From positions 45,026 through 109,025 of the forward strand of contig JAAYIE010000060.1 in the NCBI GenBank assembly GCA_012744275.1: a DNA stretch of 64,000 nt, written 5' to 3'. The notes under the pieces were generated by a model, which saw nothing but the letters and a program-made list of their open reading frames with translations, had not been told where the DNA came from and did not search any database. Below, one piece after another: positions 54,367 through 64,000 of this stretch (the stretch's first letter is position 1; every line of letters starts with the position of its first letter). The stretch is from Desulfobulbaceae bacterium (GTDB taxonomy: Bacteria; Desulfobacterota; Desulfobulbia; Desulfobulbales; Desulfobulbaceae). Made by a program: the position numbers and the translations under genes.

Positions 54367-56553
54367 ATGACACAATATTACGCCCATTCAACGAGTAACC
54401 CCGATAAATCCGATTGGCAGCCGTTGGAAGAACATTTGCTTGCGGTGGCCCAGCGAGCAGAGGAATTTGCCGCCGCCTTTAATGCCGGTAAATGGGGTCG
54501 ATGCGCTGGCTTGCTCCACGATGCTGGCAAGGCCTGTACCGATTTTATTGCTCGATTAGAAGGAAAACCTGGCCGGGTGGATCACATCACCTTTGGCGCC
54601 CGTCAGGCCTTACATGTGCATAAAGCCTGCGGTGTTTTGCTTGCCTATGCCATTTGCGGGCATCATGGCGGCCTGCCTGATGGGGGCGTGCAGGAAAAGC
54701 AGTTGGGCTACCGGCTCAAAAACGGCAAGGTTGCCGAGGAGGCAGCTTTTTTGCCCGGCCTGGAATGCGCTCCTCTGCTGGATTTTCCTTTCCAGCTTCA
54801 AAAGAAAAACGCTACCTTCAGCCTCGCCTTTTTCACGCGTATGCTTTTTTCCTGCCTGGTTGATGCTGATTTTCTGGATACAGAAAAATTTTGTAACGAG
54901 GAAAAATTCGGGTATCGCAGCTCTATGCAGCCATCATCCATATCTGGTCTGAATACCTTGCTGCATAATTTTATAAAGGAAAAGCAACAAACAGCAAGAT
55001 CGGGCAAGGTGAATGACATCCGTCAGAATGTCCTGCAACAATGCCTGAACAAAGCCCTTGAAGCGCAAGGCCTGTACACCCTCACCGTGCCGACTGGCGG
55101 CGGCAAAACCCTTTCCTCCCTTGCCTTTGCCCTGAAACATGCGGAAACGCACGGTTTATCGCGGGTGATTTACGCTATCCCCTTTACTTCTATTATTGAA
55201 CAGAATGCGCAGGTTTTTCGTGATGCCCTGGGGGAAAACAATGTTCTGGAGCATCAGAGTAATTATCACGAAAAGGAAGAAACAAGCGGGTACAACAAAT
55301 GGCGCAGCCTGGCCTCAGAAAACTGGGATGCTCCGGTAGTAGTGACGACCAATGTGCAGTTTTTTGAGAGTTTATACAGCCACAAAACATCCCGTTGCCG
55401 CAAACTGCACAACATTGCCGGTAGTGTCATTGTTCTGGATGAGGCCCAGGCCATTCCTACTGAATATCTGGAACCATGCCTGGCAGCTTTAAGGGAACTG
55501 GTGCAGCATTACCGTTGCACCATTGTTCTTTGCACTGCGACACAACCAGCCCTGGATGATAGCAGCTTAGGTACGGCATTGCCCAATCCTCGCGAAATTA
55601 TTGATAATCCGGGTGAACTCTTTCGCGATTTACGCCGTACAAAAATTGAATTCATCGGCACAGTAAGCAATCTGGAGCTTGCAGCCCGACTGGATACACA
55701 CGAGCAGGTGCTCTGTGTTGTGGCAACCAAGAAGCAGGCGCAGCAGGTTTTTACTCATCTCAACGACAAAGAAGGCGCATTTCATCTGACCACCAATCTG
55801 TATCCTGCCCACAGATTACGTGTACTGGCAACTATCCGCGAGCGGCTTGATGCAGGCTTGCCCTGCCGGGTGGTGTCGACATCTTTGATTGAGGCCGGGG
55901 TGGATGTGGATTTTCCCTTTGTGTACCGGGCAATGGCAGGGCTGGATTCCATTGCCCAGGCCGCAGGCCGTTGTAACCGGGAAGGCAAGTTAGCCCTCGG
56001 CATGGTGTATGTGTACGAACCGGACGAGTTGCCCGCCATGCCCTGGTTGCGCCGCCGGGTTTCCCGAGCAAAGGAAACCTTGCGCGCCTTACCAGGCAAA
56101 GATTGTTTGACCGATCTGGAACCGATGCGCCGCTACTTTGAACTGCTCTACGACGTGGAGACCTTGGACAAAGACAACATTGTTACTCGGCTCACACCAC
56201 CCTTGAGCAAAGAACTCATCTTCCCTTTCAGGGAGGTGTCTGAGGATTTCCGGCTCATTGCCGATGAAGGCCTTGGGCTGATTATACCCGGGCTTGCCGA
56301 TGATCGGGATGCAGTGGCAAAGCACCTTGAACAACTTCGCACCGATCCCTTTCCCCATACCGCGCAAAGAAAACTGCAACACTATGCCGTGACTGTTCGC
56401 ACTTCCACCCTCAGCACATTGCAGCGTGCAGGGGCAGTGGAAATGATTCGGGACCGGTATCCGGTACTGGCTAATATGGCAGCCTATGATGAGCAATTGG
56501 GCCTGGTAACGGAAAAAGGGGAAGTTTGGGAGGTGGAGAATTTAATGCTATAG
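54367..56553 (+). CDS. cas3: Type I-C Cas3 (HD nuclease-helicase)
   Basis: HD motif LLHDAGK, HHGG; helicase TVPTGGGKTLSSLAFAL, VLDEAQAIP, STSLIEAGVDVDFPFVYRAMAGLDSIAQAAGRCNREGK. Confidence 0.96.
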   Translation: MTQYYAHSTSNPDKSDWQPLEEHLLAVAQRAEEFAAAFNAGKWGRCAGLLHDAGKACTDFIARLEGKPGRVDHITFGARQALHVHKACGVLLAYAICGHHGGLPDGGVQEKQLGYRLKNGKVAEEAAFLPGLECAPLLDFPFQLQKKNATFSLAFFTRMLFSCLVDADFLDTEKFCNEEKFGYRSSMQPSSISGLNTLLHNFIKEKQQTARSGKVNDIRQNVLQQCLNKALEAQGLYTLTVPTGGGKTLSSLAFALKHAETHGLSRVIYAIPFTSIIEQNAQVFRDALGENNVLEHQSNYHEKEETSGYNKWRSLASENWDAPVVVTTNVQFFESLYSHKTSRCRKLHNIAGSVIVLDEAQAIPTEYLEPCLAALRELVQHYRCTIVLCTATQPALDDSSLGTALPNPREIIDNPGELFRDLRRTKIEFIGTVSNLELAARLDTHEQVLCVVATKKQAQQVFTHLNDKEGAFHLTTNLYPAHRLRVLATIRERLDAGLPCRVVSTSLIEAGVDVDFPFVYRAMAGLDSIAQAAGRCNREGKLALGMVYVYEPDELPAMPWLRRRVSRAKETLRALPGKDCLTDLEPMRRYFELLYDVETLDKDNIVTRLTPPLSKELIFPFREVSEDFRLIADEGLGLIIPGLADDRDAVAKHLEQLRTDPFPHTAQRKLQHYAVTVRTSTLSTLQRAGAVEMIRDRYPVLANMAAYDEQLGLVTEKGEVWEVENLML

Positions 56554-56643
56554 AAGATATAACCTCATATTATCAGAATTATTTTGATAGGAAATCCTTT
56601 TTATGATACCAATCTAGTAACTCATAAAAAGGAGGCGATAAAA

Positions 56644-56718
56644 ATGCGCTTCAGACTGAAATTGAAGGTATGGGGTACCAACGTGCTTGATCTTGAAGTA
56701 AGCATCGAACCACCATAG
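56644..56718 (+). CDS. Candidate 24-aa microprotein in the cas3-cas5c gap
   Basis: RBS aaaaaggaggcgataaaa then ATG: MRFRLKLKVWGTNVLDLEVSIEPP*; not in the ORF track because of length; followed by a perfect 15-bp hairpin. Confidence 0.45.
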   Translation: MRFRLKLKVWGTNVLDLEVSIEPP

Positions 56719-56735
56719 TTATTCTAGGTTGTTTT

Positions 56736-56770
56736 CCTCCTTCTTGCAAGACCATCTTGCAAGAAGGAGG
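56736..56770. terminator. Perfect 15-bp stem-loop (possible terminator/RNA processing element)
   Basis: cctccttcttgcaag-accat-cttgcaagaaggagg. Confidence 0.6.
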
Positions 56771-56798
56771 GTCGTCTTATTTTGGAAGATGTCGACTC

Positions 56799-56880
56799 AT
56801 TGCGCCCGCATGGGAGCATGGATTGAAATTCCAATACGTTGTCCGTTGTCGCGCCTCTGCACGGGTGCGTGGATTGAAAC
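56799..56880 (+). CRISPR. Degenerate two-repeat mini-CRISPR between cas3 and cas5c
   Basis: Repeat-like attgcgcccgcatgggagcatggattgaaat (56799-56829), 18-nt spacer tccaatacgttgtccgtt (56830-56847), repeat-like gtcgcgcctctgcacgggtgcgtggattgaaac (56848-56880); compare array repeat gtcgcgcccctcgcgggcgcgtggattgaaac. Confidence 0.85.
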
Positions 56881-56908
56881 TGACATTATGAAGGCTACAG
56901 CTGGTTCA

Positions 56909-56931
56909 AGGGCTGTTCTTGTAACAGCCCT
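56909..56931. other. Perfect 9-bp stem-loop downstream of the mini-CRISPR
   Basis: agggctgtt-cttgt-aacagccct, upstream of the cas5c RBS. Confidence 0.65.
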
Positions 56932-56964: not shown

Positions 56965-57630
56965 ATGAGCTATGGAGTCAAACTCCGCGTTTGGGGCGAT
57001 TACGCCTGTTTTACCAGACCCGAAATGAAGGTGGAGCGGGTCTCCTACGATGTTATGACCCCTTCGGCAGCGCGGGGCATACTGGAAGCAATTCACTGGA
57101 AGCCCGCGCTTCGCTGGGAAATAGATGCCATTCATGTGCTGCATCCCATTGTCTTTGACAATATTCGGCGCAACGAGGTGAGTTCAAAAATCTTCAAACC
57201 AAATCCCGCAACAGCCATGCGCGACCAGAAGGCGCTGTACTTTCTGGTTGATGACGGCAACAACCGCCAGCAACGGGCCACCACCCTGCTGCGCAACGTC
57301 AATTATGTGATCGAGGCGCACTTTGTGCTTACAGATAAGGCCGGGCCAGATGACAACGAAGGTAAGCACCTGGATATCTTTAACCGCCGGGCGCGCAGCG
57401 GCCAGTTTTTTCATCAACCCTGTTTGGGCTGCCGTGAATTTCCGGCTTTTTTTGAGTTGTTTGAAAATGATTTTCCCACCTCCTGCTACGCCGGTAGCAC
57501 CAAGGAGCTGGGTTACATGCTGCTGGATATTGATTTTACCAACAAAATGACGCCGCTTTTTTTTAAGGCCGTTATGCAGGACGGCGTTATCCGCCCGCCT
57601 TCACGGTTTTCCCAGGGGGTGAAGGCATGA
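56965..57630 (+). CDS. cas5c: Type I-C Cas5 (Cas5c/Cas5d, pre-crRNA processing)
   Basis: MSYGVKLRVWGDYACFTRPEMKVERVSYDVMTPSAARGILEAIHWKPALRWEIDAIHVL. Confidence 0.95.
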   Translation: MSYGVKLRVWGDYACFTRPEMKVERVSYDVMTPSAARGILEAIHWKPALRWEIDAIHVLHPIVFDNIRRNEVSSKIFKPNPATAMRDQKALYFLVDDGNNRQQRATTLLRNVNYVIEAHFVLTDKAGPDDNEGKHLDIFNRRARSGQFFHQPCLGCREFPAFFELFENDFPTSCYAGSTKELGYMLLDIDFTNKMTPLFFKAVMQDGVIRPPSRFSQGVKA

Positions 57631-59387
57631 TTTTGCAAGAACTGCATCATTTTTATGAGCGGAAAAGTGCCGAGCCTGATTCCGGTATGCCGCCCTATGG
57701 CACCAGTGTGGAAAACATCTCTTTTGCGCTGGTGCTCAATCCTGCGGGCCAGGTTGTGGCCATAGAGGATTTGCGGGAACAGGAAGGGAAAAAGATGGTG
57801 GCGCGCAAGCTGGCGGTACCTGCCGCTGTCACCAGAACCTCTGGCATCAAAGCCAATTTTTTATGGGATAAATCTGCATACGTTTTTGGGGCCGATGCTG
57901 AGGGCGCAACCGAGCAAAATCTGCTCCGCTTTAGCGCCTTTCGGGAACAATTTTCATCTGTAGCAAACCGTGTTGACGATGCGGGCCTGCTTGCGGTAAC
58001 TCGGTTTCTGGAAAACTGGGACGTCCAGCAAACGCAAGCCACCCTGGAACAATTCCTGCCCTGGGATGAGCTGGTCAATGCGAATTTTGTTTTCCGCCTT
58101 GATGGGGTGCCTGGTTTTGTCCATAGCCGCGCTGCTGTACAAACAGCATGGCAAAAACAGCTTGCCCACACAGATCCTATGCCGCCCGTACGTTGCCTGA
58201 TTACCGGAGAGGAAAACAAACCGCTTGCCCGTGTGCATACACCCATCAAGGGGGTGCAGGGTGGGCAAACATCCGGAGGCTATATCGTTTCGTTCAATGC
58301 AACGGCTTTTGTTTCATATGGGCAGGATAAGGCCTCTGTGGCTGAAGACTCTGCTTTTGCCTACACAACCGCCTTGAATTACCTCCTGCGGCGAAACAGT
58401 GGCCAGAAAATTGTTATCAGCGATATCACGGTTGCTTTCTGGGCTGCGCGCAGCAGCCCGGCGGAAGATTTGTTTGCTGGGCTGCTTGCCCCTGAAGATA
58501 CGCCGGATACCAACGATACCCTTGAAGACGATTACAACACCGCAAAAAAAATCCACGACCTGCTCCAGGCCCTGCGCAGGGGCAGATCCGTAGTAGACAT
58601 TGTGCCTGATTTGGATGAATCGGTTCGTTTCTTTGTACTGGGGCTTGCCCCCAACGCTGCCAGACTCTCCATCCGCTTTTGGCAGGCCAATGATCTGGGG
58701 ATTTTTTTGAAAAGGGTTGGCTTGCATTTCCAGCAACTGGAAATGGTACGCCAATTTGACAATGAACCTGAATTTCCCCCCTTGTGGCGCTTGCTTTGCC
58801 AAACCGCGACCTTGGGTAAAAGTGAAAATGTTTCCCCGGTTCTGGCTGGCGGCATGATTAAGGCGGTACTGACGGGCAACCCCTATCCCCACACCTTGCT
58901 TGCCAGCCTTCTTGGCCGTATTCGTGCTGAGCACATGGTCACCTATTTCAGGGCCGCCCTGCTCAAGGCTTTTCTTATTCGCAATAAACTGATGGAGGTG
59001 CCTGTGTCGCTTGATGTTAGCAGAACTGACAGACCGTATTTGCTGGGCCGCCTGTTCGCAGTACTCGAAAAGGCCCAGGAAGAGGCCATCCCAGGTGCAA
59101 ACGCCACCATTCGGGACCGATATCTTGGGTCAGCAGCAGCCACTCCTGCCCAGGTATTCAATATGCTCTTGAAAAACTCAGCCAACCATCTCGGCAAAAT
59201 TCGCAAAGATCCGGAGAAAACGAAACTTGCCTACTTCTATGACAAAATCATCGAAGGGTTGGTGAATGATTTTGATGATTTCCCCCGCACCATGTCAGCT
59301 GAAGAACAGGGCCTGTTTATGATCGGCTACTACCACCAACGCAAAGACCTTTTTGTCCCCAAAGCAGAAAGGAGAACCCAGATATGA
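57627..59387 (+). CDS. cas8c: Type I-C Cas8c
   Basis: 586 aa between cas5c and cas7c; ILQELHHFYERKSAEPDSGMPPYGTSVENISFALVLN; overlaps neighbours by 4 nt. Confidence 0.94.
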   Translation: MILQELHHFYERKSAEPDSGMPPYGTSVENISFALVLNPAGQVVAIEDLREQEGKKMVARKLAVPAAVTRTSGIKANFLWDKSAYVFGADAEGATEQNLLRFSAFREQFSSVANRVDDAGLLAVTRFLENWDVQQTQATLEQFLPWDELVNANFVFRLDGVPGFVHSRAAVQTAWQKQLAHTDPMPPVRCLITGEENKPLARVHTPIKGVQGGQTSGGYIVSFNATAFVSYGQDKASVAEDSAFAYTTALNYLLRRNSGQKIVISDITVAFWAARSSPAEDLFAGLLAPEDTPDTNDTLEDDYNTAKKIHDLLQALRRGRSVVDIVPDLDESVRFFVLGLAPNAARLSIRFWQANDLGIFLKRVGLHFQQLEMVRQFDNEPEFPPLWRLLCQTATLGKSENVSPVLAGGMIKAVLTGNPYPHTLLASLLGRIRAEHMVTYFRAALLKAFLIRNKLMEVPVSLDVSRTDRPYLLGRLFAVLEKAQEEAIPGANATIRDRYLGSAAATPAQVFNMLLKNSANHLGKIRKDPEKTKLAYFYDKIIEGLVNDFDDFPRTMSAEEQGLFMIGYYHQRKDLFVPKAERRTQI

Positions 59388-60244
59388 CCAGCTTGGCCAA
59401 TCGTTATGAATTTGTTTTGCTCTTTGATGTGGAGAATGGCAACCCTAACGGAGACCCGGATGCAGGCAATATGCCGCGCATTGACCCTGAAACCGGGCAT
59501 GGGTTAGTGACCGATGTCTGCCTTAAACGGAAAATACGCAACCATGTGGCCCTGGCCAGGGAAGGAGCCACAGGTTTTAAAATTTATATTCAGGAAAAGG
59601 CGGTATTGAACCGCACCAACGAGGAGGCCTACAAGGCTTTTTTTTTAAAGTCGGAGGCCAAAAAACTGCCTAAGAAAATTGAGGATGCGCAAAACGTAAC
59701 CGGCTGGATGTGCGCCAATTTTTATGATATTCGCGCCTTCGGCGCAGTCATGACTACCGAGGTCAACTGTGGCCAGGTGCGCGGGCCAGTGCAACTGGCC
59801 TTTGCCAAAAGTGTTGATCCCATCCTGCCCCAGGAAATCAGCATTACCCGTATGGCCGTGACCAACGAGCGGGATCTGGAAAAGGAGCGCACCATGGGGC
59901 GCAAACATATTGTTCCCTATGGTCTGTACATGGCTCAGGGCTTTATCTCCGCACCTTTGGCGGAAAAAACAGGATTTTCCGAGGAAGATTTGGATCTCCT
60001 ATGGGATGCGCTCATCAACATGTTCGAGCACGATCGTTCCGCAGCGCGCGGCCTGATGAGTAGCCGCAAACTTTTTGTTTTTAAACACGAAAACAAAATG
60101 GGAAACGCTCCGGCACACACGCTCTTTGACCTGATTAACATTGAGCGCGCTCAGGGATCGACCGGCCCGGCCCGTTCGTTCAAGGATTATGTGGTGAGAG
60201 TTGGTTCCATGCCCAACGGAGTGAGCTTGCAGGAAAAATTGTAG
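59384..60244 (+). CDS. cas7c: Type I-C Cas7 (Csd2)
   Basis: NRYEFVLLFDVENGNPNGDPDAGNMPRIDPETGHGLVTDVCLKRKIRNHV. Confidence 0.96.
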   Translation: MTSLANRYEFVLLFDVENGNPNGDPDAGNMPRIDPETGHGLVTDVCLKRKIRNHVALAREGATGFKIYIQEKAVLNRTNEEAYKAFFLKSEAKKLPKKIEDAQNVTGWMCANFYDIRAFGAVMTTEVNCGQVRGPVQLAFAKSVDPILPQEISITRMAVTNERDLEKERTMGRKHIVPYGLYMAQGFISAPLAEKTGFSEEDLDLLWDALINMFEHDRSAARGLMSSRKLFVFKHENKMGNAPAHTLFDLINIERAQGSTGPARSFKDYVVRVGSMPNGVSLQEKL

Positions 60245-60254
60245 AGAGTGTTGG

Positions 60255-60560
60255 ATGCCTTGGAGAGTCTCCAATGGATACAGCTTTTTCTCAACCGTGG
60301 CCTGGCTCTTATTGAACCAAATGGCCGAGTTGCTTGACCGGACAAGTCGGTTCTTTCCCGCCATCTTCGCAATATATTGCGGGAAGAAGAGTTGGCCAAG
60401 ACCGGCAGTTGTTGCAAAAAGCGCAACAACTGCCGCAGGCATAAAACCTACCAGATCGACTATTACAACCTGGATGCAATTATCTCCGTTGGTTACCGGA
60501 TCAATTCCAGGCGCGACCAACGGAACAGGGCGTGTTCGAATTGGGCAGGGTGCTTGATTC
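60255..60560 (+). pseudogene. Frameshifted RhuM-family (virulence protein RhuM) relic
   Basis: Frame 1: STVAWLLLNQMAELLDRTSRFFP; then shifted frame (HLRNIL)REEELAKTGSC...KTYQIDYYNLDAIISVGYRINSRR; matches the remembered RhuM pattern 'VWLsQaQMAELF...HIRNIf.EgEL...YYNLDaIISVGYRVnS.RgtqFRiWAT' across two frames. Confidence 0.7.
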
Positions 60561-60629
60561 TTTGGTCAAAGCCTCAGGCGACTATCGAAAGGGTATCCTT
60601 ATCCGCCCTGTCTGCCGGAGTAAAAGCAT

Positions 60630-62820: not shown

Positions 62821-64000
62821 GTCGCGCCCCTCGCGGGCGCGTGGATTGAAACATCTCGTTCCGGCCAACACCAGCCCGACATCGGCCGTCGCGCCCCTCG
62901 CGGGCGCGTGGATTGAAACTGCGGCACTTGGCAGCATCGGCTATCCTGGCAGGTCGCGCCCCTCGCGGGCGCGTGGATTGAAACCACCCAACTGGCCCGG
63001 GATCTCACCTCGGCCCGGGTCGCGCCCCTCGCGGGCGCGTGGATTGAAACAACTAGTGCGTTTACCTGATCGTTGAAATGGCGCAGTCGCGCCCCTCGCG
63101 GGCGCGTGGATTGAAACTTTTGCACGTCAAACACGGCCGAGCCGGTTGAGGTCGCGCCCCTCGCGGGCGCGTGGATTGAAACATGAAAGCCGCGCTGGCG
63201 CTCGGCATCCTCAACGTCGCGCCCCTCGCGGGCGCGTGGATTGAAACTTCTGTATCTAGATTGATCTTGACCATGCCACGGCGGTCGCGCCCCTCGCGGG
63301 CGCGTGGATTGAAACCCGCCATTGCGCTCTTCCGTTTTTTCTCGCACAGTCGCGCCCCTCGCGGGCGCGTGGATTGAAACGAGTCAAGCATCTCGCGTCC
63401 TGCCTTATCCCAGGTCGCGCCCCTCGCGGGCGCGTGGATTGAAACGTGTCAATGACCACAACACCACACAAGTTTTTTGTCGCGCCCCTCGCGGGCGCGT
63501 GGATTGAAACCACCTATCCGGTACGATCCAGATGAAATCGTGACAGTCGCGCCCCTCGCGGGCGCGTGGATTGAAACGCCAAGCTGCAGACGCGCATGCT
63601 CAAGACGAGCGCGTCGCGCCCCTCGCGGGCGCGTGGATTGAAACTCTGGATTGCTTGTGTCGTATCGCGCCGTTGCAGGTCGCGCCCCTCGCGGGCGCGT
63701 GGATTGAAACTCTTGTGGATGCGAGCAAGGTTCTTAACAGCACGGTCGCGCCCCTCGCGGGCGCGTGGATTGAAACCCGTGCAACTCGATGTGATCCGGA
63801 TCTGCAGCGCAGTCGCGCCCCTCGCGGGCGCGTGGATTGAAACAATCGCCCTGGCATACACGGATCAGCGCACGGTGGTCGCGCCCCTCGCGGGCGCGTG
63901 GATTGAAACTTCGTGGTTACTGAAGAACCGGCAAAGCCATGCCCGTCGCGCCCCTCGCGGGCGCGTGGATTGAAACAGATGCTCAAATTGGCGCAGACCA
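62821..64000 (+). CRISPR. Type I-C CRISPR array, 18 repeats visible, continues beyond window
   Basis: Repeat GTCGCGCCCCTCGCGGGCGCGTGGATTGAAAC (32 nt) starting at 62821, 62888, 62953, 63019, 63086, 63151, 63216, 63284, 63349, 63414, 63479, 63546, 63613, 63679, 63745, 63812, 63878, 63945; 17 complete spacers of 33-36 nt, an 18th truncated at 64000. Confidence 0.99.

Follow-up and report, generated by a model that had tools for sequence, protein, structure and literature searches.

The window that we analyzed, a stretch of 64,000 nucleotides from a Desulfobulbaceae bacterium (contig JAAYIE010000060.1), contains a complete type I-C CRISPR locus with the gene order cas3–cas5c–cas8c–cas7c–cas4–cas1–cas2 and an array (Table 1). 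I-C systems are devoid of cas6 and use Cas5c as the processing enzyme, and TTC is the I-C PAM. The gap between cas3 (end 56553) and cas5c (start 56965) measures 411 bp, and a sequence-only reading of the window had placed two degenerate copies of the array repeat within it. An Rfam scan of the window returned a tRNA as its sole match. The cas7c–cas4 gap (60245–60629, ~385 bp) is unusually long and holds no convincing gene; it is perhaps a decayed gene or an insertion. A second contig (G000 contig C152, 40–1336; L003, L007, and L008) carries many copies of the window's array repeat, which are probably the continuation of the array running off the window end.

Table 1 Positions of the type I-C genes and of the features in the cas3–cas5c gap of the window
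Feature	Position	Strand	Description and basis
cas3 (I-C)	54367..56553	+	PADLOC Cas3c, E 2.5e-223
Predicted Cascade target (protospacer)	56563..56575	-	5'-TGATAATATGAGG-3'; relatives' targets at the equivalent place
PAM 5'-TTC-3'	56576..56578	-	GAA on the plus strand; directly before the target
Putative promoter	56584..56612	+	TTGATA, 17 nt, TACCAA; TG precedes the -10
Shine-Dalgarno AGGAGG of the microORF	56630..56635	+	Sequence; SD-like motifs before homologous microORFs
MicroORF, 24 aa, putative toxin peptide	56644..56718	+	MRFRLKLKVWGTNVLDLEVSIEPP*; homologues in 10 other loci
Terminator-like hairpin	56735..56771	+	17 pairs, loop 3, then TCGTCTTATT; only in the window copy
R1, extra degenerate repeat	56800..56829	+	TTGCGCCCGCATGGGAGCATGGATTGAAAT; local alignment, stem, shuffle test
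Inter-repeat spacer	56830..56847	+	18 nt between R1 and R2; no recognisable target
R2, degenerate repeat	56848..56880	+	GTCGCGCCTCTGCACGGGTGCGTGGATTGAAAC, 33 nt; 84 nt from cas5c
Guide segment	56881..56908	+	TGACATTATGAAGGCTACAGCTGGTTCA, directly after R2
9-bp hairpin 3' of the guide	56909..56931	+	Most relatives have a hairpin here, of different sequence
cas5c	56965..57630	+	PADLOC Cas5c, E 5.5e-75
cas8c	57627..59387	+	PADLOC Cas8c, E 1.5e-166
cas7c	59384..60244	+	PADLOC Cas7c, E 6.5e-123
CRISPR array	62821..63976	+	18 repeats in the window, continuing towards the window end

Degenerate repeats, guide, and target in the window

Both repeat copies stand out when the 32-nt consensus of the array is aligned locally: R2 scores 48 and R1 scores 30, as against at most 26 for any other place in the window apart from the array itself. 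None of 3000 dinucleotide shuffles of the gap reached 30, the maximum being 26. The sequence-only reading had given R2 a length of 33 nt, claimed that stem pairing is largely retained, and noted a 9-bp hairpin before cas5c; all of this agrees with our analysis, in which the stem of R2 pairs in full and that of R1 with one mismatch. As also stated there, the copies are separated by 18 nt compared with 33–36 nt in the array, and together with the divergence between R1 and R2, this spacing departs from a canonical mini-array. The sequence GGATTGAAA has no further occurrence within positions 1–62700. Between the microORF and R1 sits a near-perfect hairpin followed by a T-rich stretch, a feature absent from the list of the earlier reading. 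It resembles either a terminator or a small palindromic insertion and was not seen in the gaps of relatives. Because it precedes the repeats, expression of the guide may depend on a separate promoter; a consensus scan of the window gap found none.

The guide begins with TGACAUUAUG..., and the post-R2 sequence TGACATTATGAAGG matches TGATAATATGAGG at 56575–56563 on the minus strand. Guide positions 1–3, 5, and 7–11 match (9/10 in the seed), positions 4, 6, and 12 are unmatched, and no pairing is present at 14–17. In the 2.83-Mb genome, the target is the only site that combines TTC with at most one seed mismatch, and the shuffle P for the window pair ranges from 0.0005 (TTC only) to 0.0055 (six PAMs). 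The post-R2 sequence had been among the candidates of the earlier reading, and its proposal of a crRNA-like regulator is supported for this guide with its local, TTC-flanked partial match. It fails for the 18-nt inter-repeat spacer, which had been put forward as a processed, functional guide. The best local seed of that spacer is 4–6/10 (shuffle P ~0.9) and its matches across the genome stay at background level, so we rejected it as a guide.

The target site begins 10 nt past the cas3 stop and adjoins the putative promoter of the microORF. This promoter has 8/12 consensus matches and a poor -10, lies 5 nt from the PAM, and falls below the threshold of the consensus scanner; promoters of relatives read TTGACN-17-TANNNT and are usually 6–11 nt from the PAM. 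A target had been anticipated in the promoter of cas3, cas5c, or the microORF. The site does lie beside the putative microORF promoter, and the first gene downstream is the microORF, neither cas3 nor cas5c.

Guide–target coevolution and the 24-aa peptide in related loci

Cas5c neighbors were gathered within the genus and among public genomes. Gaps in the Desulfobacterota clade are either short and without a module or ~160–310 nt long with one repeat ~80 nt before cas5c; in about half of these relatives, cas3 and cas5c nearly abut and the module is absent. Our set of repeat-bearing loci comprises 20, of which 17, the window included, were found by the handle motif in the gap and three by peptide search (L108, L109, and L110). 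L035 was dropped as a module, as its motif lies inside an apparently disrupted cas5c start. Relatives carry a single repeat per gap, to which R2 corresponds by position, R1 being additional, and R2 is predicted to supply the 5' handle of the guide RNA. The functional unit of the earlier reading narrows to R2, followed by guide and 3' hairpin as in the one-repeat relatives, with the R1–spacer part as an extra.

A local target with at least 8/10 seed matches is present in 19 of the 20 loci, although the guide sequences differ between loci; L079 is the sole locus with a repeat and no local target. The seed scores are 10/10 in 15 loci, 9/10 in the window and L036, and 8/10 in L029 and L074. Counted over the 19 loci, guide positions 1–18 match 19, 18, 18, 18, 19, 3, 18, 17, 19, 19, 19, 3, 15, 15, 15, 17, 16, and 1 times. 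Positions 6, 12, and 18 are thus matched in only 3, 3, and 1 loci, and positions 13–17 in 15–17, as expected for the periodicity of type I Cascade, in which every sixth base is flipped out. The best site was chosen with no PAM requirement, and TTC nevertheless precedes it in 18/20 loci and TTT in one. When guides were compared with the gaps of other loci, 9 or more seed matches occurred in 7/399 pairings, several of them between related loci. Covariation across related I-C loci, which had been put forward as a check, is also evident in the repeat stems: arms from one locus pair with each other at 94% of their positions, arms taken from different loci at 74%, and compensatory types occur at pairs 2–6. 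Guide–target covariation, the TTC PAM, and stem covariation are beyond chance or array debris. On the Cas5c tree, modules have often been gained and lost, the well-supported branches requiring no fewer than 4 to 6 such changes.

Guide modules also occur outside the main clade (L050, L056, L058, L064, L074, and L082). In L050 (Methylotenera), L056 (Gastranaerophilales), and L064 (Pseudovibrio), unrelated short hydrophobic or amphipathic ORFs occupy the slot beside perfect seeds; the guide of L056 precedes the ORF, and this locus has a genuine terminator with a U-tract. L074 and L082 lack a small ORF that is clearly intact. In G671, the module is located upstream of cas3, before the whole operon, in a I-C system with about 51 repeats; the array (L119, 5–3430) contains a 200-nt tandem duplication of three spacer–repeat units (962–1161 and 1162–1361). 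L031 and L039 (same contig as L010) have perfect guide–target pairs and no peptide ORF. These two are candidates either for modules with recent peptide loss or for forms of the CreR type, the crRNA-like cas autorepressor of Liu et al. 2023, as summarized in PMC12737573 and PMC12948488. In L029, a frameshift breaks the peptide frame and the seed is down to 8/10, consistent with relaxed selection on the guide–target seed once the peptide is dead.

Across 11 loci, the 24-aa peptide has the consensus MRxRxKLxLFGRxFxDxExxLEPP. Its dN is 0.16–0.73 (JC-corrected) with dS from 0.9 to saturation, and the pooled, uncorrected pN/pS is 0.50, values that indicate purifying selection. A profile HMM searched against >900 genomes gave confident matches (E <1e-6) only beside cas genes, and nothing passes the cut-off in Pfam, NCBIfam, or PADLOC; DUF7429 was rejected as the family (E 0.098, below its cut-off). 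A likeness of the microORF to the Cas5c N terminus (KL.VWG) was likewise dropped, being absent from the homologous peptides. All 11 copies end in Pro-Pro-stop with CCA as the last codon, compared with 4–22% of proline codons in the neighboring cas genes sampled, which hints at a codon-level role. A C-terminal Pro-Pro hinders termination and causes ribosome arrest and tagging (PMC3834316), and in relatives, the peptide stop is 10–25 nt before the repeat. The peptide is probably a toxin. A more specific version, which we regard as somewhat unlikely, is a type I-C family of Cascade-repressed toxins, charge-alternating, beta-hairpin-like 24-aa peptides with a Pro-Pro(CCA)-stop end. Such a peptide would arrest ribosomes at its own stop codon, where the arrested ribosome would lie against the antitoxin repeat hairpin and couple toxin translation to guide maturation.

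Proposed mechanism and rival explanations

The likely reading, in our judgment, is that the I-C cas operon harbors a module for addiction or regulation similar to CreTA, the CRISPR-regulated toxin–antitoxin of I-B haloarchaea and I-F Acinetobacter (PMC8501985, PMC9458426, PMC10097628), in which Cascade with the guide represses a putative peptide toxin. From the module anatomy, the coevolution of guide and target, the PAM, the stem covariation, and the conservation of the peptide, we infer how transcription, RNA processing, repression, and toxicity would proceed. Transcription would start just past cas3 and run through the 24-aa microORF, the degenerate repeat, the guide, and the 3' hairpin towards cas5c–cas8c–cas7c. 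Cas5c would process the repeat into a crRNA-like RNA, whose guide would bring the I-C Cascade to the TTC-PAM site 5–11 nt upstream of the -35. Pairing would involve positions 1–5, 7–11, and often 13–17, with every sixth base unpaired; presumably, this partial pairing suffices to bind and block RNA polymerase and is too little for Cas3 cutting. An intact Cascade would thereby keep the peptide off. Once Cascade is lost or inhibited, by mutation or by an anti-CRISPR, the promoter would open and the peptide would arrest growth. Cascade expression might rise at the same time, and the guide perhaps also represses cas5–8–7.

Several observations weigh against such a CreTA-like arrangement, namely the position 4 mismatch, the poor -10, and the hairpin before the guide in the window, as well as the lack of a target in L079. 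In haloarchaeal CreTA, single seed changes abolished antitoxin activity (PMC8501985). The window copy may be weakened by its seed mismatch, the extra R1, and the inserted terminator, or the mismatch may be tolerated. A stronger form of this thought, which we consider improbable, holds that the family is a working guide-repressed module and that the window copy is a relic losing its function. The seed mismatch and the missing pairing at 14–17 would fit, as would the more degenerate R1, the orphan 18-nt spacer, the terminator-like insertion, the weak -10, and the repeated gain and loss of modules on the Cas5c tree. However, the microORF is intact with its EPP-stop and a strong SD, the R2 stem is fully paired, and the genome still offers no good site other than the target.

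The main rival to peptide repression, though an unlikely one, is a CreR-type autoregulator, in which the guide tunes Cascade through an internal cas5c–cas8c–cas7c promoter and the microORF encodes a leader, possibly an arrest, peptide. The promoter does point into cas5c, ahead of which no terminator is obvious in relatives, the module of G671 stands before the whole operon, and the Pro-Pro-stop close ahead of the repeat is a known arrest motif (PMC3834316). Because L031 and L039 retain perfect guide–target pairs with no peptide, a pattern that fits cas autoregulation better than peptide repression, a pure cas regulator remains a candidate. On the other hand, the unrelated small ORFs in the slot of other lineages are easier to see as swapped toxins than as a leader peptide, and the near-abutting cas3 and cas5c in about half of the clade imply that the operon does not need the module. 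CreR-like regulation of cas5c-8c-7c and peptide repression may also coexist. That the features are functionless remnants of a CRISPR array, or chance, we consider extremely improbable. The degenerate repeats do lie near an active array and the spacer after R1 lacks a target, but such an origin is contradicted by stem and guide–target covariation in the family and by the TTC PAM across related loci.

Comparison with known systems

Guide-repressed toxins and cas autoregulators are already known, while the I-C version and the peptide family seem to be undescribed in the literature searched. Shmakov et al. 2023 reportedly found, by computation, crRNA-like elements with standalone repeats whose spacers match only in part and which lie close to cas promoters or to toxin cargo, features that our modules, with their putative toxin, share. 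The literature searched, which did not extend to the key surveys Shmakov 2023, Liu 2023, and Shu 2025, describes neither I-C modules nor the 24-aa family. If the CreTA-like reading is true, type I-C, which is without cas6 and outside the cas6-surrounding CreTA set, would also be guarded by guide-repressed toxin-like genes, the cas3–cas5c slot would hold exchangeable small ORFs, and CRISPR loss would release the peptide. The 20-locus pattern offers a natural record of minimal Cascade pairing, in which each sixth base is left free, the pairing mostly ends by ~position 17, and TTC is kept. With this record, the point at which silencing turns into self-cleavage can be tested directly in I-C. The micropeptide family is new, its Pro-Pro(CCA)-stop end is invariant, and it provides a putative toxin that can be tested.

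As far as CreR is described in the sources that cite it, our module resembles it in that a predicted crRNA-like RNA is directed to a promoter within the cas operon, and the resemblance is closest in L031 and L039, which lack a toxin-like gene as CreR does. It differs in the conserved peptide gene that intervenes in the window and in ten relatives; in the window, the promoter is followed by the peptide gene and then by cas5c, in one orientation. In CrePA, CreA represses a protein toxin, the KilA-N-domain protein CreP (Shu et al. 2025, via PMC12737573). Judged from that account, the likeness is a predicted protein rather than RNA product under guide control, whereas the product here is a 24-aa peptide with no Pfam, NCBIfam, or PADLOC family instead of a KilA-N-type toxin.

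The closest parallel is a CreTA-type toxin–antitoxin, since the first gene past the targeted promoter is the conserved 24-aa peptide gene. Both systems have ectopic degenerate repeats in a cas intergenic region, and both have a partial guide whose PAM-flanked seed match falls at the promoter, putative in the window, of a mini-ORF that carries a Shine-Dalgarno sequence; the tested CreA likewise uses seed positions 1–5 and 7–11 and a TTC PAM (PMC8501985). In the window, the conserved ORF and its SD are directly downstream of the target, the toxin role being putative. The cas3-adjacent gap of about 400 bp is shared with I-F CreTA. However, earlier CreTA modules were described as surrounding cas6 (PMC10097628), whereas the window module belongs to a type I-C locus with no cas6. 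Its mini-ORF encodes a conserved peptide under protein-level selection, yet with the last codon fixed as CCA, whereas the toxins of CreTA are RNAs with a very short ORF, such as a tRNA-sequestering mini-ORF. Moreover, I-C modules usually consist of one repeat and a 3' hairpin, and their guide is encoded downstream of the putative toxin, just before cas5c.
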